From positions 2,480,001 to 2,544,000 of the forward strand of contig NZ_BLJF01000001.1 of NCBI RefSeq assembly GCF_009932335.1: DNA of 64,000 bases, written 5' to 3'. A program made the translations under genes and the position numbers. Of the stretch, positions 2,170 to 59,782 are shown piece by piece. This DNA is from Pseudomonas asiatica. GTDB taxonomy: Bacteria; Pseudomonadota; Gammaproteobacteria; Pseudomonadales; Pseudomonadaceae. Under the pieces are notes generated by a model. It had not been told where the DNA came from. It made no database searches and was given only the letters and a program-made list of their open reading frames with translations. The stretch's first letter is position 1. Each line of letters begins with the position of its first letter.

Positions 2170-3144
2170 TCAGGGCGAGATATTGCGGTCACGCAACGCT
2201 TGGGCCGTGCAACCAAACCGTCGCCGCACGCACTTGCCCAGGTAACTGGCATCGCCCAGGCCCACTTCATCGGCAATCTGCGCCAGGCTGTGGCTGGAAT
2301 TGAGCAAACGCCAGCGCGCCTGTTGCAGGCGCATCTCCAGCCACCAGGCCTTGGCGCTCATGCCATGGCTGGCGTGAAACTGCCGGTCCAGCTGGCGCCG
2401 GCTGATGCCCAGCTCAGCCGCCAACTGCTCCGCGGTCAACGGCGTACCCAGGTGATGACGCATCAACGCCTGCGCACGCTGCACCTGCCGCCCCTGCCCG
2501 GCCCCCAGCTCCAACGAGCGCAAGGCATGGCGGCTATCGCGGGTTTCATCCACCAGCATGTCGGCCAGGCCCTTCAGCGCCCTGGCCCTCCCGCAGGCGC
2601 GTGACAACAGCGCGACGGCCAGGTCGATGGCCGCGGTGCCGCCGGCGCAGGTGATGCGGCTACCGTCGATGCAATACAGCTGCTCACTCAGCACCTGCAA
2701 ATGCGGGAAGGCCGCACGGAATTCGGCTTCGTGTCGCCAGTGCACCACCACCTTGTGCCCCTGCAGCAACCCGCAGGCGGCCAACAGGAAGGCGCCATTG
2801 TCGACCCCAACCAGCTTGACGCCAGCCTTGCCAGCCTGCCTCAGCAAGGCCCGGTAGCGAGGCGCCAGCGCGGCAGTGGCCATCGCGTTGCGCCCGCCGA
2901 ACACCACCAGGTAGTCGAAACTGGCCAGCTCGAGCTGGCCAGCGACGGCCTCGACCTGCACCACCGCGCCACTGCTCGAAGGCACCGGGTCGAGTGTCAG
3001 CCCTGCCACGGTCCAGCTGCAGTAGCGCTGCTGGCTGTAGTCCTCGTCGTCGGCGCTGAAACGCAACTTGTCGAGAAAGGCACCGAACGGCAGCAGGGCA
3101 AAATCCGGTAACGGCAAGATCAGCAAGCGGATATCGGGCTGCAT
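2170..3144 (-). CDS. GlxA family transcriptional regulator (DJ-1/PfpI + AraC HTH)
   Basis: A 324-residue protein with an N-terminal class-I amidotransferase-like (DJ-1/PfpI) sensor domain and a C-terminal AraC/XylS DNA-binding domain. The first HTH is in LTAEQLAAELGISRRQLDRQF and the second in SLAQIADEVGLGDASYLGK. The start at 3144 (MQPDIRLLILPLPDF) was chosen over an in-frame ATG at 3273 because it begins the first strand of the DJ-1 fold and leaves a promoter region before the divergent lysE-type gene. Regulators of this architecture (GbdR, ArgR, CdhR in pseudomonads) sense amines or amino-acid derivatives. Here the divergent exporter is a plausible target; the ligand is unknown. Confidence 0.85.
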   Translation of the reverse strand: MQPDIRLLILPLPDFALLPFGAFLDKLRFSADDEDYSQQRYCSWTVAGLTLDPVPSSSGAVVQVEAVAGQLELASFDYLVVFGGRNAMATAALAPRYRALLRQAGKAGVKLVGVDNGAFLLAACGLLQGHKVVVHWRHEAEFRAAFPHLQVLSEQLYCIDGSRITCAGGTAAIDLAVALLSRACGRARALKGLADMLVDETRDSRHALRSLELGAGQGRQVQRAQALMRHHLGTPLTAEQLAAELGISRRQLDRQFHASHGMSAKAWWLEMRLQQARWRLLNSSHSLAQIADEVGLGDASYLGKCVRRRFGCTAQALRDRNISP

Positions 3145-19224: not shown

Positions 19225-20862
19225 TCAGGCAATCGCCGCATCCACCAGCACTTGCGCTTCCTGCACCAGGCGCTGCAGGTGCGCCTCGTCGATGAAGCTT
19301 TCGGCGTAGATCTTGTAGATATCCTCGGTGCCCGACGGGCGTGCGGCGAACCAGCCATTCGCGGTCATCACCTTCAGCCCGCCGATCGCCTGGCCGTTGC
19401 CCGGCGCATGGCTGAGGATCTGCACGATCGGCTCACCCGCCAGCTCGGTCGACTTCACCTGCTCCGGCGCCAGCTTGCTCAGCAAAGCCTTCTGCCGGGC
19501 ATCGGCCTTGGCTTCGACACGGGTGGCGAACGGCTTGCCCAGCGCCTCGGTCAGGTCGGCGTAGGCCTGGCTCGGGTTGCGCCCGGTGCGGGCGGTCATC
19601 TCGGCAGCCAGCAAGGCCGGGATCAGCCCGTCCTTGTCGGTGGCCCAGACCGAGCCATCGCGGCGCAGGAACGAAGCCCCCGCACTTTCCTCGCCACCAA
19701 AGCCCAGCGTGCCGTCGAACAGGCCCTGGGCGAAGAACTTGAAGCCCACCGGCACTTCGTACAGTTCACGGCCCAGGCGCTGGGTGACGCGATCGATCAG
19801 GCCACTGGACACCACGGTCTTGCCGACGGCGGCATCGCTGCGCCATTGCGGGCGGTGGCGGTACAGGTAGTCGATGGCCACGGCCAGGTAGTTGTTCGGC
19901 TGCAGCAGGCCATCGGGGGTGACGATGCCATGGCGATCGTGGTCCGGGTCGCAGGCGAAGGCCACGTCGAAGCGTTCGCGCAGGCCGATCAGGCCCTGCA
20001 TGGCATAGGGCGAGGACGGGTCCATGCGGATCTGGCCGTCCCAGTCGACAGTCATGAAGCGGAAGGTCGGGTCGACCTCGGTGTTCACTACTTCCAGGTC
20101 GAGCTGGTAATGCTTGGCGATCGCCGACCAGTAGCGCACCCCTGCGCCGCCCAGCGGGTCGACGCCCAGGCGCAGCTTGGCAGCGCGGATGACGTCGAAG
20201 TCGATGACGTTTTCCAGGTCGGCCACGTAGTTGCTCACGTAGTCGTGACGCTGGGTGGTGGATGCCTGCAGCGCCTGGGCATGGTCCATGCGCTTGACGC
20301 CCGCCAGGTCAGCAGCCAGCAGTTCGTTGGCCTTGGCCTCGATCCACTTGGTCACGTCGCTGTCGGCCGGGCCGCCATTGGGCGGGTTGTACTTGAAGCC
20401 ACCGCTTTGCGGCGGGTTGTGCGACGGGGTGATGACGATGCCGTCGGCCAGGCCCTGCTCGCGGCCACGGTTATGGCAGAGGATGGCATGGGAAACCGCT
20501 GGTGTTGGCGTGTATTCGTCGTCCTTGGACAGCATTACCTGCACGCCATTGGCAGCCAGCACTTCCAGGGCGCTGGCGGTAGCCGGTGCCGACAGTGCGT
20601 GGGTGTCGGCGCCGATGAACAGCGGGCCATCGATGCCCTTCTCCTGGCGATACAGGCAGATGGCCTGGGTAATGGCCAGAACGTGGTACTCGTTGAAACT
20701 CAATTCAAGCGAAGTGCCCCGGTGCCCAGAGGTGCCGAAGGCCACCCGCTGGGCCGCCACGGCAGCGTCGGGGCGGCCGGTGTAGTAGGCGGTGAGCAGT
20801 CGGGGAATATCGACCAGCACGCTGGCCGGAGCCGGCTTGCCTGCCAAAGGACTGAGCGTCAT
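19225..20862 (-). CDS. pgm: Phosphoglucomutase (alpha-D-glucose phosphate-specific)
   Basis: A 545-residue phosphohexomutase of the usual length for bacterial Pgm. [15 protein letters not shown] near residue 45 is the substrate/metal-proximal N-terminal motif, [23 protein letters not shown] holds the catalytic phosphoserine, [11 protein letters not shown] is the metal-binding DxDxDR-like loop, and [18 protein letters not shown] near the C-terminus is the phosphate-binding loop. It interconverts glucose 1- and 6-phosphate for glycogen, trehalose and envelope sugars. GAGG precedes the start. It is monocistronic as far as can be seen. Confidence 0.95.
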
Positions 20863-34171: not shown

Positions 34172-34672
34172 TTACTTCAGCACAGCCAGAGCTGCGTCGT
34201 AGTTCGGCTCATCAGCGATTTCGCCAACCAGCTCGCTGTGCAGCACCTTGTCGTTTTCGTCCAGCACCACCACGGCACGGGCAGCCAGGCCGGCCAGTGG
34301 GCCATCGGCGATGGCCACGCCGTAGTTTTCGAGGAACTCGCGGCCACGCAGGGTCGACAGGTTCTTCACGTTGTCCAGGCCTTCGGCGCCGCAGAAGCGT
34401 GCCTGGGCGAACGGCAGGTCGGCGGAGATGCACAGCACCACTGTGTTGGCCACATCGTTGGCCTGGGCGTTGAACTTGCGCACGGAGGTAGCGCAGGTCG
34501 GGGTGTCGACGCTCGGGAAGATGTTCAGCACCTTGCGCTTGCCGGCGAAGTCTTTCAGCGACTTGTCAGCCAGGCCTTCACCGACCAGGGAGAAAGCCGG
34601 AGCCTGGGCGCCGGTTTTCGGCAGCTCGCCGTTGACCTGAACCGGGTTGCCTTTGAGAGTCACTTGAGCCAT
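34172..34672 (-). CDS. tpx: Thiol peroxidase, atypical 2-Cys peroxiredoxin
   Basis: A 166-residue Tpx. The peroxidatic cysteine C60 is in [15 protein letters not shown] and the resolving cysteine C94 in [12 protein letters not shown], the same spacing as E. coli Tpx (C61/C95). It reduces hydroperoxides with thioredoxin; family members are periplasmic or cytoplasmic, and no signal peptide is seen here. AAGGA lies 8 bases before the ATG at 34672. It is a single gene, bounded by terminators on both sides. Confidence 0.95.
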
Positions 34673-34780
34673 GACGAAATCCTTATGCGGGTTTGAAAAG
34701 GACACTGAGTTAAGCATGAAGGCGGCCGGGTGCCTATGGGGACAGTGAAATTGTTCTATTACCGGACAATTCTTGTGGAC

Positions 34781-40702: not shown

Positions 40703-40725
40703 TCTTCAGGAAACTGCGCAATTTC

Positions 40726-40840
40726 TGTAGGAGCGGCCTTGTGTCGCGACAGGGCCGCAAGGCGGCCCCGGCAATCCCTGCTGCGGCATAGATCCTGGGG
40801 CTGCTAAGCAGCCCTTTCGCGACACAAGGCCGCTCCTACA
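40726..40840. repeat. REP doublet, type A, inside the ABC operon
   Basis: A full inverted pair between the binding-protein stop (40702) and the first permease start (40874). It is the only type A doublet inside a clear operon in this window. A hairpin here would let the binding protein be made in excess over the permeases. Confidence 0.9.
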
Positions 40841-40873
40841 AAGAGTCCGCATTGCCCATCCTAGGGGTTTGTC

Positions 40874-44397: not shown

Positions 44398-44514
44398 TGT
44401 AGGAGCGGCCTTGTGCCGCGAAAGGGCTGCGCAGCAGCCCCAGGGTTTCAGCGCAGGTGCACAAATTGCCGGGGCTGCTTTGCAGCCCTTTCGCGACACA
44501 AGGCCGCTCCTACA
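44398..44514. repeat. REP doublet, type A
   Basis: Full inverted pair 31 bases after the ABC ATPase stop, at the end of the D-lysine operon, where it could also protect the 3' end of the transcript. Confidence 0.9.
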
Positions 44515-44856
44515 GGTTCCGCGTCAGCCGAAGGAGTGAGCGACTCTGCCGGCCCTTCATTGCACCGCTGCAAAGACCCAACTGCATCGTTAAATATTAT
44601 TGACCTTAACCCCCGCCAAACCCACGCCGCCACAGGCCCGCATCGGTTTCAGCCCCCAAAAACCGGCGCATTCCCTGCCATCAAGCCCTGCTCCGTCGTT
44701 TGACATATCGAACGGCTCTGGCAAGCTATCTACAAGCCCCGACCGGAATCGTCGCCTCCGACGAGCCGGCAGTGCTCGGGGCTACAGGTTGCACCCATGG
44801 CCCCGCGCCGTGCACCTGCACAACAACGACAGGCCGAACCTGTCCCAAGGTGACAT
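44515..44856. other. Intergenic region with no recognised gene
   Basis: About 340 bases between the REP doublet and the amidotransferase gene. No reading frame with family resemblance is visible on either strand. TTGACA at 44700-44705 could be a -35 box, but the sequence 17-18 bases further on is a poor -10. AAGGTGAC just before 44857 is the ribosome site of the next gene. Confidence 0.4.
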
Positions 44857-46035: not shown

Positions 46036-46094
46036 AACTTACCTCCAACGCAAAACATCACCCTTCACCCAAGCGCCACAGGATGCCAACAACA

Positions 46095-47006
46095 ATGACT
46101 CCACAAGAACTCAAATCCATCCTCTCCCACGGCCTGCTGTCTTTCCCGGTCACCGACTTCAACGCCCATGGCGACTTCAACCCGGCTGGCTACGTCAAGC
46201 GCCTGGAATGGCTGGCCCCGTACGGCGCCAGCGCCCTGTTCGCCGCCGGTGGCACCGGTGAGTTCTTCTCGCTGGCTGCCAGCGAGTACAGCCAGGTGAT
46301 CAAGACCGCCGTCGACACCTGCGCCAAGTCGGTCCCTATCCTCGCCGGCGTCGGTGGCTCCACCCGCCAGGCCATCGAATACGCGCAAGAAGCCGAGCGC
46401 CTGGGTGCCAAGGGCCTGCTGCTGCTGCCCCACTACCTGACCGAAGCCAGCCAGGAAGGCGTCGCCGCCCACGTCGAAGCCGTATGCAAATCGGTAAACA
46501 TCGGCGTAGTCGTCTACAACCGCAACGTCTGCCGCCTGAACGCCGACCTGCTGGAAAAACTCGCCGAGCGCTGCCCGAACCTGATCGGCTACAAGGACGG
46601 CCTGGGTGACATCGAGCTGATGGTGTCGATCCGTCGCCGCCTGGGCGACCGCTTCAGCTACCTGGGCGGCCTGCCGACCGCCGAGGTGTATGCTGCTGCC
46701 TACAAGGCCCTGGGCGTGCCGGTGTACTCCTCCGCCGTGTTCAACTTCGTGCCGAAGACCGCCATGGACTTCTACAACGCCATCGCCCGTGACGACCACG
46801 CCACCGTGGCCAAGCTGATCGACGACTTCTTCCTGCCTTACCTGGACATCCGCAACCGCAAGGCCGGCTATGCCGTGAGCATCGTCAAGGCCGGCGCCAG
46901 GATCGCCGGTTATGACGCCGGCCCGGTGCGTACTCCGCTTACCGACCTCACCGCCGACGAGTACGAAAAACTCGCCGCGCTGATGGACAAGATGGGCCCG
47001 CAGTAA
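46095..47006 (+). CDS. kdgD: 5-dehydro-4-deoxyglucarate dehydratase
   Basis: A 303-residue class-I aldolase-fold (DapA family) enzyme. The Schiff-base lysine is K167 in [27 protein letters not shown] is the carboxylate-binding loop; VVYNRN holds the proton-relay tyrosine. It dehydrates and decarboxylates 5-keto-4-deoxyglucarate to 2-ketoglutarate semialdehyde. The second of two in-frame ATGs (46095, MTPQELKS) is preferred, since orthologues I recall begin MNPQELKS and AGGA lies 11 bases upstream; 46083 remains possible. First gene of the operon. Confidence 0.92.
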
Positions 47007-47110: not shown

Positions 47111-48472
47111 ATGCAAGCGACGAAGAAGACGCATGTGCGCTACCTGATCCTGTTCATGCTGTTCCTGGTGACCACGATCAACTACGCTGACCGCGCCACC
47201 ATTGCCATCGCGGGCTCCAGCCTGCAGAAAGACCTCGGCATCGATGCCGTGACCCTCGGCTACATCTTCTCCGCCTTCGGATGGGCATACGTGGCTGGCC
47301 AGATTCCTGGTGGCTGGCTGCTCGACCGCTTCGGTTCCAAGAACGTCTACGCCTTCAGCATCTTCACCTGGTCGCTGTTCACCCTGCTGCAGGGCTTTGT
47401 CGGTGGCCTGCCGGTAGCCTGGGCGGTGGTGACTTTGTTCACCCTGCGCTTTTTGGTCGGTTTTGCCGAAGCCCCGTCGTTCCCCGGCAATGCGCGCATC
47501 GTCGCGGCCTGGTTCCCGACCCAGGAACGCGGCACCGCCTCGGCCATCTTCAACTCGGCGCAGTACTTCGCCACCGCACTGTTCGCACCGATCATGGGCT
47601 GGATCGTGTTCAGCTTCGGCTGGGAGCACGTGTTCGTGGTCATGGGCGCACTGGGCATCGTGTTCTCCATGGTGTGGCTGAAGACCATCTACAACCCGCG
47701 CCAACACCCACGTATCAGCCCAGGTGAACTCGAACACATCGAGCAGAATGGCGGGCTGGTGGACATGGACCAGAAGCGCGGCAACGACGGCCCGAAATGG
47801 GGCTACATCAAGCAACTGCTGACCAGCCGCATGCTGCTGGGCGTGTACCTGGGCCAGTACTGCATCAACGCCATCACCTACTTCTTCCTCACCTGGTTCC
47901 CGGTGTACCTGGTGCAGGAGCGCGGCATGACCATCCTCAAGGCCGGCTTCATCGCCTCGCTGCCGGCGGTCTGCGGCTTCATCGGTGGTGTGCTGGGCGG
48001 GGTGATCTCCGACTGGCTGCTGCGCCGCGGCAACTCGCTGACCTTCTCGCGCAAGCTGCCGATCGTCTGCGGCCTGCTGCTGTCGACCACCATGGTGTTC
48101 TGCAACTACGTCGACGCCGAGTGGATGGTGGTCGGTTTCATGACCCTGGCGTTCTTCGGCAAAGGCATCGGCGCGCTGGGCTGGGCGGTGGTCGCCGACA
48201 CCTCGCCGAAACAGATCGCCGGGCTGTCGGGCGGGCTGTTCAACACCTTCGGCAACATCGCCTCGATCACCACGCCAATCGTGATCGGCTACATCATCAG
48301 CGCCACGGGTTCGTTCAAGTGGGCCCTGGTGTACGTCGGCGCCAACGCCCTGGTGGCGGTGTTCAGCTACCTGGTGATCGTCGGCCCGATCAAGCGCATC
48401 GAGCTGCGTGAAAGCCCAAAGCCTGACGCCGAGCCAGCGGCCGGCAGCGAACTGGCCGGCTCGCGCCACTGA
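47111..48472 (+). CDS. gudP: MFS transporter for glucarate/galactarate (GudP/GarP type)
   Basis: A 453-residue ACS-family permease. The N-terminus TTINYADRATIAIAGSSLQ followed by GYIFSAFGWAYVAGQIPGG and WLLDRFGSKNVYAFS is very close to E. coli GarP/GudP. Twelve membrane segments are visible. It imports hexarates by proton symport for the enzymes encoded on either side. It has a TGGGAG ribosome site and a 104-base gap after kdgD with no evident promoter. Confidence 0.92.
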   Translation: MQATKKTHVRYLILFMLFLVTTINYADRATIAIAGSSLQKDLGIDAVTLGYIFSAFGWAYVAGQIPGGWLLDRFGSKNVYAFSIFTWSLFTLLQGFVGGLPVAWAVVTLFTLRFLVGFAEAPSFPGNARIVAAWFPTQERGTASAIFNSAQYFATALFAPIMGWIVFSFGWEHVFVVMGALGIVFSMVWLKTIYNPRQHPRISPGELEHIEQNGGLVDMDQKRGNDGPKWGYIKQLLTSRMLLGVYLGQYCINAITYFFLTWFPVYLVQERGMTILKAGFIASLPAVCGFIGGVLGGVISDWLLRRGNSLTFSRKLPIVCGLLLSTTMVFCNYVDAEWMVVGFMTLAFFGKGIGALGWAVVADTSPKQIAGLSGGLFNTFGNIASITTPIVIGYIISATGSFKWALVYVGANALVAVFSYLVIVGPIKRIELRESPKPDAEPAAGSELAGSRH

Positions 48473-48548: not shown

Positions 48549-50102
48549 ATGCAGTTGATCGAACATTCCGACTCGCCCCGCTACGTCCGCCTGCACGACG
48601 ATGACAATGTCGTGGTGGTGGTCAATGATGGCGGACTGGGCGAAGGCGCCCGCTTCGCCGACGGCCTGACCCTGGTCGAAGGCGTGCCACAGAGCCACAA
48701 GGTGGCCACCGTAGCCATCGCCAAGGGCGAACCGGTGCGCCGCTACGGGCAGATCATCGGCTACGCGCTGGAAGACCTGCGCCAGGGCAGCTGGGTGCAG
48801 GAGAGCCAGCTGGCCATGCCGGCCGCGCCGGAGCTGGACAGCCTGCCACGCTGCGACGCCGTCCCGCAGCCGCTGCCGCCGCTCGAAGGCTTCACCTTCG
48901 AAGGCTACCGCAACGCCGACGGCACCGTCGGCACCCGCAACATCCTCGGCATCACCACCACCGTGCAGTGCGTGGCCGGCGTGCTGGAGCATGCGGTAAA
49001 GCGCGTTCGCAGCGAGTTGCTGCCCAAGTATCCCAATGTCGATGACGTGGTGGCGATCACCCACAGCTACGGCTGCGGTGTGGCGATCAACGCGCGCGAT
49101 GCCTACATCCCGATCCGCACGGTGCGCAACCTGGCGCGCAACCCCAACCTGGGCGGCGAGGCCCTGGTCATCAGCCTGGGCTGCGAAAAGCTGCAGGCCG
49201 GCCAGGTGATGCACGACAACGACCCGTCGGTGGACCTCAGCGACCCGTGGCTGTACCGCCTGCAGGACGCCAGCCTGGGCTTTGTGGAAATGATCGAGCA
49301 GATCATGCAACTGGCCGAGACACGCCTGAAGAAACTCGATCAGCGCCGCCGCGTAAGCGTGCCGGCCAGCGAACTGATCCTGGGTATGCAGTGCGGGGGC
49401 AGCGATGCCTTCTCGGGCATCACCGCCAACCCGGCGCTGGGCTACGCCGCCGACCTGCTGGTACGCGCCGGCGCCACCGTGCTGTTCTCGGAGGTGACCG
49501 AAGTGCGCGACGCCATCTATATGCTCACCTCGCGGGCGGAAAACCAGGAGGTCGCAGACGCCCTGGTGCGCGAAATGGACTGGTACGACCGCTACCTGCA
49601 GTAAGGCGCCGCCGACCGCAGCGCCAACACCACGCCGGGCAACAAGAAAGGCGGCCTGTCGAATATCGTCGAGAAGTCCCTGGGGTCGATCGTCAAGTCC
49701 GGTAGCGGCGCCATCCAGGGCGTGCTCGGCCCGGGCGAGCGGGTCAACCGCAAAGGCCTGATCTTCTGCGCCACCCCGGCCAGCGACTTTGTGTGCGGCA
49801 CCCTGCAACTGGCTGCCGGCATGAACCTGCATGTGTTCACCACCGGCCGCGGCACGCCATACGGTCTGGCCATGGCGCCAGTGGTCAAGGTATGCACCCG
49901 CAGCGAGCTGGCCCAGCGCTGGCCCGACCTGATCGACATCGACGCCGGGCGCATCGCCAGCGGCCGCTCGACCATCGAGGAGCTGGGCTGGGAGCTGTTC
50001 CACTACTACCTGGACGTGGCCAGCGGCCGCAAGCAGACCTGGGCCGAACAGCATCGCCTGCACAACGACATCACCCTGTTCAACCCGGCACCGATTACCT
50101 GA
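48549..50102 (+). pseudogene. garD: Galactarate dehydratase interrupted by an in-frame TAA
   Basis: The frame encodes a full-length GarD: an N-terminal SAF-like domain ([20 protein letters not shown]), then [30 protein letters not shown] and [19 protein letters not shown], up to DWYDRYLQ at residue 351. Codon 352 (49602-49604) is TAA. The same frame then continues [35 protein letters not shown] and [13 protein letters not shown] to the natural end NPAPIT and TGA at 50102, 518 codons in all, the family's usual length. The stop replaces a position usually held by Lys or Arg in a loop. Apart from it no codon is lost. A nonsense mutation, a base error or read-through are the options; the C-terminal part has no credible start of its own. 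Confidence 0.85.
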
Positions 50103-50131
50103 TGACCCGGCTTCTCGACAGTGTCGCGATC

Positions 50132-50220
50132 CCTGTGGGAGCGGGCGAGCCCGCGAAGCAGGCAACCCGGTGTATGGCACCGGCTGCGCCGGTGTTCGCG
50201 GGCTCGCCCGCTCCCACAGG
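50132..50220. repeat. REP doublet, type C, between garD and KGSADH gene
   Basis: CCTGTGGGAGCGGGCGAGCC and its exact inverse, ending 48 bases before the dehydrogenase start, inside the hexarate operon. Confidence 0.9.
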
Positions 50221-50267
50221 TCATGCGACAACCTGCCAGATTTTCTCTCAACCTACAGGAGCACCCC

Positions 50268-51848
50268 ATGCCTGAAATCCTCGGCCACAACTTCATCGCC
50301 GGCCAGCGCAGCGCCGCTGGCCCGCAGCGCCTGCAGAGCCTGGACGCCAGCACCGGCGAGGCCCTGCCCTACAGCTTCGCCCAGGCCACCGAAAGCGAAG
50401 TGGACCAGGCCGCCAAGGCCGCGGCCGCCGCTTTCGCCGAATTCCGCCAGCTGGCCCCGGCGCGGCGCGCCGAATTCCTTGACGCCATCGCCGCCGAGCT
50501 GGACGAACTGGACGACGCCTTCGTCGCCATCGTCTGCCGTGAAACCGCCCTGCCCCCCGCCCGTATCCAGGGCGAGCGCGGCCGCACCAGCGGCCAGATG
50601 CGCCTGTTCGCCCAGGTGCTGCGCCGTGGTGACTTCCTCGGTGCACGCATCGACCTGGCCCTGCCCGAGCGTCAGCCCCTGCCACGCGTGGACCTGCGCC
50701 AGATGCGCATCGGCGTCGGCCCGGTCGCCGTATTCGGCGCCAGCAACTTCCCGTTGGCCTTCTCCACCGCCGGTGGCGATACCGCTGCGGCCCTGGCCGC
50801 CGGTTGCCCGGTGGTGTTCAAGGCCCACAGCGGCCACATGGCCACCGCCGACCTGGTCGGCTGTGCCATCCAGCGCGCCGCCGAGCGCACCGGCATGCCC
50901 AAGGGCGTGTTCAACATGGTGTTCGGTGGCGGCGTCGGTGAGTGGCTGGTCAAACACCCGGCCATCCAGGCCGTCGGCTTCACCGGCTCGCTGAAAGGCG
51001 GTGACGCCCTGTGCCGCATGGCCGCCGAGCGCCCGCAGCCGATCCCGGTGTTCGCCGAGATGTCCAGTATCAACCCGGTCATCATCCTGCCGGGCGCCCT
51101 GGCCAAGCGTGGCGAAGCCATCGCCCGAGAACTGGCCGGTTCGGTGTGCCTGGGCGCAGGCCAGTTCTGCACCAACCCGGGCCTGGTGATCGGCCTGCAG
51201 TCGCCGCAGTACAGCCAACTGCTGGCAGAGCTTGGCCTGCACCTGAGCCAGCAGGCCGGCCAGACCATGCTCAACGCAGGTGGCCTGCGCAGCTACGTCG
51301 GTGGCCTGGAGCACCTACACGCCCATGCCGGTATCGAGCACCTGGCCGGCCAGGCGCAGGCAGGCAGCCAGGCGCGCGCCCAGCTGTTCAAGGCCGATGC
51401 CCGCCTGCTGGTGGAGTCTGACCCGCTGCTGCAGGAAGAAGTGTTCGGCCCGACCACTGTTGCCGTGGAAGTGCAGGACAACGATCAGTTGCGCGCCGCC
51501 CTGCTCGGCCTGCGCGGCCAGCTGACCGCGACCCTGATTGGCGAGCCGGAAGACCTGCAGGCCTTCGCCTGGCTGGTGCCGCTACTGGAGGAGAAAGTCG
51601 GGCGGATCCTGATCAACGGCTACCCGACCGGTGTCGAGGTGTGTGATGCGATGGTGCACGGCGGGCCTTACCCGGCCACGTCGGATGCGCGCGGCACGTC
51701 GGTCGGCACCCTGGCCATCGACCGCTTCCTGCGCCCGGTGTGCTACCAGAACTACCCGCAGGCACTGTTGCCTGAGGCACTGCGCGACGGCAACCCGCTG
51801 GGGCTGCGCCGGCTGGTAAATGGCCAGTGGAGTGAGGGCGCGATCTGA
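50268..51848 (+). CDS. 2,5-dioxovalerate (2-ketoglutarate semialdehyde) dehydrogenase
   Basis: A 526-residue aldehyde dehydrogenase, the length of the KGSADH group. The nucleophile is C301 in GAGQFCTNPG and the general base E264 in FAEMSSINPV. It oxidises 2-ketoglutarate semialdehyde, the KdgD product, to 2-oxoglutarate with NAD(P)+, feeding the TCA cycle. AGGAG lies 7 bases before the ATG at 50268; longer readings run into the REP. A terminator hairpin follows. Confidence 0.93.
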   Translation: MPEILGHNFIAGQRSAAGPQRLQSLDASTGEALPYSFAQATESEVDQAAKAAAAAFAEFRQLAPARRAEFLDAIAAELDELDDAFVAIVCRETALPPARIQGERGRTSGQMRLFAQVLRRGDFLGARIDLALPERQPLPRVDLRQMRIGVGPVAVFGASNFPLAFSTAGGDTAAALAAGCPVVFKAHSGHMATADLVGCAIQRAAERTGMPKGVFNMVFGGGVGEWLVKHPAIQAVGFTGSLKGGDALCRMAAERPQPIPVFAEMSSINPVIILPGALAKRGEAIARELAGSVCLGAGQFCTNPGLVIGLQSPQYSQLLAELGLHLSQQAGQTMLNAGGLRSYVGGLEHLHAHAGIEHLAGQAQAGSQARAQLFKADARLLVESDPLLQEEVFGPTTVAVEVQDNDQLRAALLGLRGQLTATLIGEPEDLQAFAWLVPLLEEKVGRILINGYPTGVEVCDAMVHGGPYPATSDARGTSVGTLAIDRFLRPVCYQNYPQALLPEALRDGNPLGLRRLVNGQWSEGAI

Positions 51849-51865: not shown

Positions 51866-51895
51866 AAAGCCCCGCGCATGGCGGGGCTTTTCTTT
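51866..51895 (+). terminator. Rho-independent terminator of the hexarate operon
   Basis: AAAGCCCCGC pairs with GCGGGGCTTT around GCATG and is followed by TCTTTT, 17 bases after the dehydrogenase stop. Confidence 0.9.
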
Positions 51896-51907
51896 TGGCT
51901 GTACCGA

Positions 51908-52000
51908 CCTCTTCGCGGGCACGCCCGCTCCCACAAGTATCGCTGCACCCTCAAGATAAGGTGATCCCTGTGGGAGCGGGCGCGCCCGCGAAGAGGCCGG
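51908..52000. repeat. REP doublet, type C
   Basis: CCTCTTCGCGGGCACGCCCG and its inverse with a small change (GCGCGCCCGC), in the gap between the convergent KGSADH and GntR genes. Confidence 0.9.
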
Positions 52001-52017
52001 TACAAGCGACGAAGGCC

Positions 52018-52767
52018 TCAGGCCCCCTGCGCCTCGGCCTCTTCATGCGCCTGGCGCAAGCGCTCGCGGCTGTTGCTCAGGTGCATGCGCATGGCCATCT
52101 TCGCCCCTTCGCTATCACGCCGGGCGATGGCTTCGTAGATCGCCTCGTGCTCATGCATCAGCCGGCTCATGTAGTGCGCCTGGTCATCATGGGCCAGCCG
52201 CGCCGAATTCAACCGGGTACGCGGGATGATGCTGGTGCCCAGGTGGTTGATGATGTCGGCGAAGTAGTGGTTGCCGCTGGCCTGGGCAATGCGCAGGTGG
52301 AACTGGAAATCCGCCGACACCGCATCCGTGGCGTGGGCAGCCCCTTCGTTGAGTTCGTCCAGCGCCGCACGCATGCCGGCCAGCTCTTCGTCGCTGCGCC
52401 GCTGCGCCGCCAGGCCCGCCGATTCGATCTCCAGGGCAATGCGCAATTCCAGCACCGCCAACACTTCGCGAAGGGTGACCACGGTCGCCGGGTCGATACG
52501 GAAACCACCCGTTGCTGGCGCGTCCAGCACGAAGGTACCGATGCCGTGGCGGGTCTCGACCTGCCCGGCAGCCTGCAGCCGCGAGATCGCTTCACGCACC
52601 ACCGTGCGGCTGACACCCTCTTCGGCCATGATCTGCGATTCGGTCGGCAGCTTGTCGCCGCGCTTGAGCTGGCCGCTGCGAATGCGCTCGGTCAGCACCG
52701 TGACCAGTTCCTGAGCCAGACTGCGCGGCTTGCGCCGGGTCTTTGCCTGTACCTGCTGCTCTGTCAT
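52018..52767 (-). CDS. GntR family (FadR subfamily) regulator of the hexarate operon
   Basis: A 249-residue regulator with an N-terminal winged helix (LVTVLTERIRSGQLKRGDKL ... SRTVVREAISRLQAAG) and a C-terminal FCD ligand domain with metal-binding histidines (DFQFHLRIAQASGN ... MHEHEAIYEAI). FadR-type proteins of this size usually repress a neighbouring catabolic operon until its substrate binds. It is convergent with the hexarate operon, and its upstream region shares the half-site of the palindrome before kdgD. The start at 52767 (MTEQQ) is chosen; a GTG five codons upstream is possible. Confidence 0.9.
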   Translation of the reverse strand: MTEQQVQAKTRRKPRSLAQELVTVLTERIRSGQLKRGDKLPTESQIMAEEGVSRTVVREAISRLQAAGQVETRHGIGTFVLDAPATGGFRIDPATVVTLREVLAVLELRIALEIESAGLAAQRRSDEELAGMRAALDELNEGAAHATDAVSADFQFHLRIAQASGNHYFADIINHLGTSIIPRTRLNSARLAHDDQAHYMSRLMHEHEAIYEAIARRDSEGAKMAMRMHLSNSRERLRQAHEEAEAQGA

Positions 52768-52805
52768 TGCCCTGTATTTCACCTTGAAAGACAGCGTTCA
52801 TCATA

Positions 52806-59482: not shown

Positions 59483-59782
59483 ATGAGCAGTAAACCGATT
59501 CGCCCCTCCACGTCCTGGGCGCTGACCACCCTGCTCGCCTTCAGCCTGGCACTCACCGCCGGCTGCTCCAGCAAAGCCAGCAAGGCCAGGTACGCAACGC
59601 CGGCAACGGGCTCCAACTGCTTCGCCAAGGCCGTCCCCACCACCGGCGAAGGCGGCCTCGCGTGGGGCAATACGCTGAGCATTGCCCGGCAGAAATCGCT
59701 GAACAACTGCGTGCGTTATGCAAGCCGGTCAGGAGGCACACCGAAGACTTGCCAGGTGGTGATGGCCAAGTGCAAGAACTGA
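59483..59782 (+). CDS. Small lipoprotein, DUF4189-like
   Basis: A 99-residue lipoprotein. The signal sequence ends in the lipobox LTAGC, giving the lipidated cysteine at residue 28. The mature part has W-x-N ... A-x-x-x-S-L-x-N-C ... G-x-x-x-T-C-x-V, like the short cysteine-containing DUF4189 domain. AAGGAGA precedes the ATG. Function unknown. Confidence 0.65.
   Translation: MSSKPIRPSTSWALTTLLAFSLALTAGCSSKASKARYATPATGSNCFAKAVPTTGEGGLAWGNTLSIARQKSLNNCVRYASRSGGTPKTCQVVMAKCKN

Follow-up and report, generated by a model that had tools for sequence, protein, structure and literature searches.

An in-frame stop codon within an otherwise full-length gene for galactarate dehydratase (garD) raises the question of whether the gene has recently been lost, whether the codon is read through, or whether a base of the assembly is in error. 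Such a stop is present in the window, the whole 64,000-nucleotide stretch of DNA analyzed here, which lies in contig 1 of a genome of 5,968,018 bases. The host was placed by its relatives in Pseudomonas, within the P. putida group. All three options had been put forward in an initial annotation, made from the letters of the window; here they are weighed against comparisons with relatives and with the remainder of the genome.

Interruption of the garD reading frame

The garD frame starts with an ATG at position 48549 of the forward strand and runs for 351 sense codons up to a TAA at 49602 to 49604 (codon 352, in the context CAG TAA GGC). Past this TAA, the same frame continues for 165 further codons to the natural TGA at 50100 to 50102. 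The initial annotation had described a TAA at codon 352, a full-length frame beyond it and no frameshift, and this description was borne out in every detail by re-reading of the bases and by matches to the protein family. The 5′ part of the gene (48549 to 49604, forward strand) encodes the SAF domain, the GD_AH second domain and the first third of the GD_AH C-terminal domain and ends at the premature TAA. Intact C-terminal domain sequence is encoded by the 165 codons of the 3′ part (49605 to 50102, forward strand), which ends at the natural TGA. When searched apart, the two pieces matched the galactarate dehydratase model TIGR03248 end to end (positions 2 to 341 and 343 to 507), while the DNA read across the stop scored 935.2 bits against this model, with one TAA inside the match. 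Both pieces also matched PDB 6U7L (residues 13 to 359 and 362 to 526), which we take to be E. coli GarD. This protein and that encoded by the window's garD are of the same family along their entire length, before and after the stop, but the PDB entry has a single continuous chain of 526 residues. Protein identity of the whole frame to intact copies was 98.6% (genome G071) and 97.5% (genome G216), and third-position GC was 0.88 upstream and 0.90 downstream of the stop. A chance open frame was rejected on the basis of this high identity and of the matching third-position GC on both sides.

The TAA falls within the C-terminal domain, PF20629, and divides its 242-position profile after position 78. 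Nearly whole profiles of the SAF and second domains are present in the encoded product, with only positions 1 to 78 of PF20629, and the domain set is hence incomplete. Against TIGR03248, the 351-residue product scored 586.7 bits, which is under the curated cut-off of 730.85, and the part past the stop scored 330.1 bits. Conservation was assessed in 110 GarD proteins of 510 to 530 residues, taken from 120 that were listed after scoring of 8,000 candidates; the clusters of GarD proteins are collapsed at 90% identity and therefore cannot show a short form in other strains. Positions identical in at least 99% of these 110 listed proteins made up 89 of 165 in the lost part versus 127 of 351 in the kept part. 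The residue at the stop site itself was R in 74, K in 22, Q in 10, S in 2, T in 1 and M in 1 of the same 110 proteins. As this residue is variable across the family, the argument for a loss of function rests on the sequence lost after the stop. Judged in this way, the part missing from the predicted product is a conserved part of GarD, as for a nonsense pseudogene, and the truncated protein is unlikely to be functional.

Distribution of intact and disrupted garD genes

The nearest relatives found were Pseudomonas sp. Kh13 and P. inefficax, with 96.5% DNA identity over garD, in a comparison from which records very close to the window's own genome may be missing. A comparison of GarD with that of related strains had been proposed as a check on the stop, and no stop was detected at this site in the relatives. 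Of 111 loci covering the site, two were the own locus, both with the stop, and the other 109 (a count in which some records occur twice) all had a sense residue. A codon-by-codon comparison gave glutamine at codon 352 in 18 of 18 close relatives. Two prior codons had been suggested, CAA and AAA. Only the glutamine kind is supported, because glutamine is present in all 18 close relatives, while the lysine kind was without support there.

A wider survey covered 298 sampled Pseudomonas genomes, in 255 of which the 5′ part of garD was matched; a full-length frame was present in 247 of these 255. For 150 genomes, rows were read by open-frame length, and the frame was at least 520 amino acids in 149, the exception being the own genome, with 354 codons between stops. 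The other 105 genomes were searched with the family model in sets of 70 and 35, with a full-length match over the cut-off and without a stop in 66 and 32 genomes, respectively. In the seven remaining genomes, garD was found as two overlapping pieces (G034 and G075) or short remnants (G254 and G269), or the matches were at the level of paralogues, with 387 to 395 bits against the family model (G137, G192 and G225). By this reading, 252 of the sampled Pseudomonas genomes have garD or a remnant of it, and the gene is broken in 5 of them, the own genome included. A lone stop within an otherwise full-length garD frame was observed only in the own genome among the 255.

The other disrupted copies are similar in kind to that of the window but not in form. 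Like the window's gene, garD of G034 and G075 is disrupted, but these copies consist of two overlapping pieces rather than one open frame. The two pieces in G034, a single-contig genome, are at G034:C1:1928192-1929708 and reflect either a loss by a frameshift that arose independently or an erroneous indel; G075 is a draft assembly of about 650 contigs. In G254 and G269, garD is reduced to remnants, in short pieces only and with no lone stop in a full-length frame. These pieces (G254:C1:3342703-3342885 and G269:C29:112349-112902), of which those of G269 contain stops, are presumably decayed garD remnants from losses older than that in the window.

Constraint past the stop codon

An examination of dN/dS around the stop, as proposed in the initial annotation, was performed with the two nearest relatives. 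Over the 165 codons past the stop, 12 and 15 synonymous differences were detected and no amino-acid differences, such that dN was 0 against both relatives, with dS values of 0.10 and 0.13. This lack of any amino-acid change past the stop indicates that the change is very recent. Eleven codons were unique to the window in comparison with 18 close relatives, 10 of them upstream of the stop and one being the stop codon, with none downstream.

Substitutions on the window's own branch were assigned by parsimony with ten outgroups. There were 18 in total, with 11 synonymous and 3 amino-acid substitutions before the stop, 3 synonymous and no amino-acid substitutions past it, and the stop. If the part past the stop had been unconstrained for the whole branch, the expected number of amino-acid changes there would be about 13 (14/387 synonymous sites × 369 non-synonymous sites). 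As none was seen, constraint would have been lost no earlier than about the last quarter of the branch, a very rough estimate that uses a Poisson bound of 3 of 13 and ignores mutation bias. Relaxation after the stop was thus not apparent, the interval being too recent for it to show or the stop being a base error. On sequence grounds, the absence of decay would fit equally well with an assembly error or with a functional gene that is read by other means.

Source and decoding of the TAA codon

One substitution without other decay is the pattern that a wrong base in the assembly would give, and in that case the living strain would have an intact garD. The assembly is, however, of good grade (3 contigs, completeness of 100 and contamination of 0.09), and the garD change falls into the commonest class of substitutions on the own branch (8 of 18, counting the stop). 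Furthermore, garD was the only gene in the window judged to have a mid-gene stop in comparison with two relatives. In this control, flagged frames were judged by position, by the author rather than by a tool, and the nearest relative utilized, G071, is listed with 7% contamination. The frames flagged at 3068, 9536, 13082, 21615, 37889 and 59321 were rejected as their stops precede the real gene start (for 59321, a small gene begins at 59483), and those at 20708, 33917, 40741 and 44788 were rejected as they overlie another gene (for 33917, a redoxin on the opposite strand at 34175 to 34750). The absence of another mid-gene stop argues against a poor assembly and is still compatible with one wrong base. 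We regard a base error as improbable on this evidence, while giving it some weight, and we infer that the TAA is a real change and that enzyme activity and growth on galactarate have probably been lost with it.

Read-through of the stop, with production of some full-length GarD, would be in keeping with the identity of the amino-acid sequence past the stop to those of the two nearest relatives. A means of decoding the codon was not apparent, however, as ARAGORN assigned 38 kinds of anticodon to 70 of 70 tRNA places and none of these was UUA, CUA or UCA; two extra calls outside these places were for Gly and Arg. The 120 bases from the stop onward folded no better than shuffled sequences (z = −0.08, with 87 of 200 shuffles as good), and the stop was present in 0 of 109 relative loci, indicating that there is no conserved recoding site. 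Very low read-through rates in P. putida, of 0.08% for UGA and 0.01% for UAG, are given in the available portion of a study whose reporters were for those two stops and not for UAA (PMC9481147). Having been one of the three options initially offered, read-through is now very unlikely, in view of the lack of a stop-reading anticodon and of RNA structure and, as far as that portion of the study goes, of the low rates in P. putida. It is similarly hard to credit that TAA is usefully decoded in certain circumstances, perhaps by way of an unrecognized change in a release factor or the ribosome, with galactarate use being kept. The intactness of both parts of garD in sequence would also be consistent with synthesis of GarD as two polypeptides that come together as an active enzyme, but the cut falls inside one domain, and a scan with the sigma-70 consensus detected no promoter-like site in 49400 to 50300. 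In-frame starts past the stop occur only from codon 392, and none of these had a well-placed ribosome site when inspected by eye; no convincing restart was found among them, in line with the earlier statement that the downstream part has no ribosome site. Two-chain synthesis is the most far-fetched of these explanations.

Predicted loss of galactarate use

With a sense residue at all 109 relative loci and zero amino-acid differences past the stop, a recent nonsense change is the best supported of the three options. We estimate a probability of about 80% that one nonsense substitution, of very recent date, has inactivated garD. A single base change would have converted a sense codon, glutamine in close relatives, to TAA. 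Ribosomes would then stop after 351 residues, within the C-terminal domain, and the protein would be short by a third of its length. No full-length galactarate dehydratase would be made, and galactarate would not be usable as a carbon source by the GarD route, while glucarate would still enter the same pathway via a separate, intact glucarate dehydratase, GudD. An early stop in a frame that is open in relatives is the mark of a nonsense pseudogene, and this is the predicted status of garD in the window. If real, the stop appears to mark a gene loss of an ordinary kind and very recent date, and not a new reading of the genetic code.

Losses of garD are already a known kind of event in Salmonella, according to the portions available of two reports, in which garD (STM3250) is a clade-specific pseudogene of S. 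Typhimurium clade 3 (PMC4810482) and carries Lys132fs in S. Paratyphi A (PMC10171690). As in those cases, galactarate dehydratase appears to have been lost here in a single lineage, and the window's garD would be one more case of such loss. The Salmonella examples, as described there, differ in being from another genus, in being common to whole lineages where the Pseudomonas stop was found in one genome only, and, for Paratyphi A, in being due to a frameshift rather than a lone nonsense codon. A garD stop in Pseudomonas was not named in the titles and abstract openings of literature on GarD, sugar acids, PP_3601 and read-through.

The genome was searched for other enzymes of galactarate and glucarate use. 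No second GarD-family match over the cut-off was found genome-wide; the GD_AH second domain was matched once, in the own garD, which was also the sole source of a C-terminal domain over the cut-off (with 1 TAA), a weak match at C2:172013 being under it. Among two candidates tested, no enolase-type galactarate dehydratase was over the cut-off of 500 for the L-talarate/galactarate dehydratase model; GudD scored 52.5 bits, and a muconate cycloisomerase, which is over its own cut-off, scored 105.4 bits. A third enolase-type match, at C1:479423, was weak and under the cut-off. A glucarate dehydratase elsewhere in the genome had been postulated in the initial annotation and was located, as a GudD match over the cut-off and without a stop on contig 3. 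Directly upstream of this intact gudD (within L112:90-2823, from contig 3 of G000, the own genome) is an MFS transporter gene, and the two likely form a separate unit for glucarate uptake and dehydration. Glucarate dehydratase yields an intermediate common with the galactarate route in the E. coli pathway, as outlined in the accessible part of a further report (PMC11775122). As GudD is complete and makes this intermediate, glucarate use should persist, unless polarity lowers expression of the aldehyde dehydrogenase gene downstream of garD. The prediction for this strain is, therefore, no growth on galactarate and a likely retention of growth on glucarate. For annotation, the first two domains make the 351-residue product resemble a galactarate dehydratase, but it should not be counted as one.

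The surrounding operon

A galactarate/glucarate operon context is present around garD, with the functions of genes other than kdgD being assigned by family and position. An intact kdgD, for 5-dehydro-4-deoxyglucarate dehydratase (46083 to 47006, forward strand), is over the cut-offs of TIGR03249 and NF002958 and is full length in comparison with two relatives; the intermediate common to galactarate and glucarate goes on through KdgD. It is followed on the same strand by an intact gene for an MFS sugar-acid transporter (47111 to 48472), which is of the TIGR00893 family, over the cut-off, and full length versus two relatives. Downstream of garD, an intact aldehyde dehydrogenase gene (50268 to 51848, forward strand) matches PF00171, reaches the cut-off for none of the 25 NCBIfam families listed and is full length versus relatives; by position, it is presumably an alpha-ketoglutaric semialdehyde dehydrogenase. 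A GntR/FCD-family regulator (52018 to 52782, reverse strand; PF00392 and PF07729), also full length versus two relatives, probably controls the garD operon, as judged by position.

The initial annotation had suggested that the rest of the operon still serves glucarate. A caution here is that the aldehyde dehydrogenase gene follows the garD stop, and a polar effect of this stop could reduce expression of that gene. Copies of this dehydrogenase with 75% and 53% identity are present in the own genome (G000:C1:1444549-1446120 and G000:C1:3580403-3581956, respectively) and are possibly redundant for the same step. Short repeats with many dispersed copies in the close relative G071 were detected at 40716 to 40845, 44398 to 44523, 50122 to 50221 and 51895 to 52010, one of them in the gap that separates garD from the aldehyde dehydrogenase gene. 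The matches in G071 were mostly of about 90 to 130 bases, up to 96% identical and on both strands, and we take these elements to resemble REP/BIME-type repeats.
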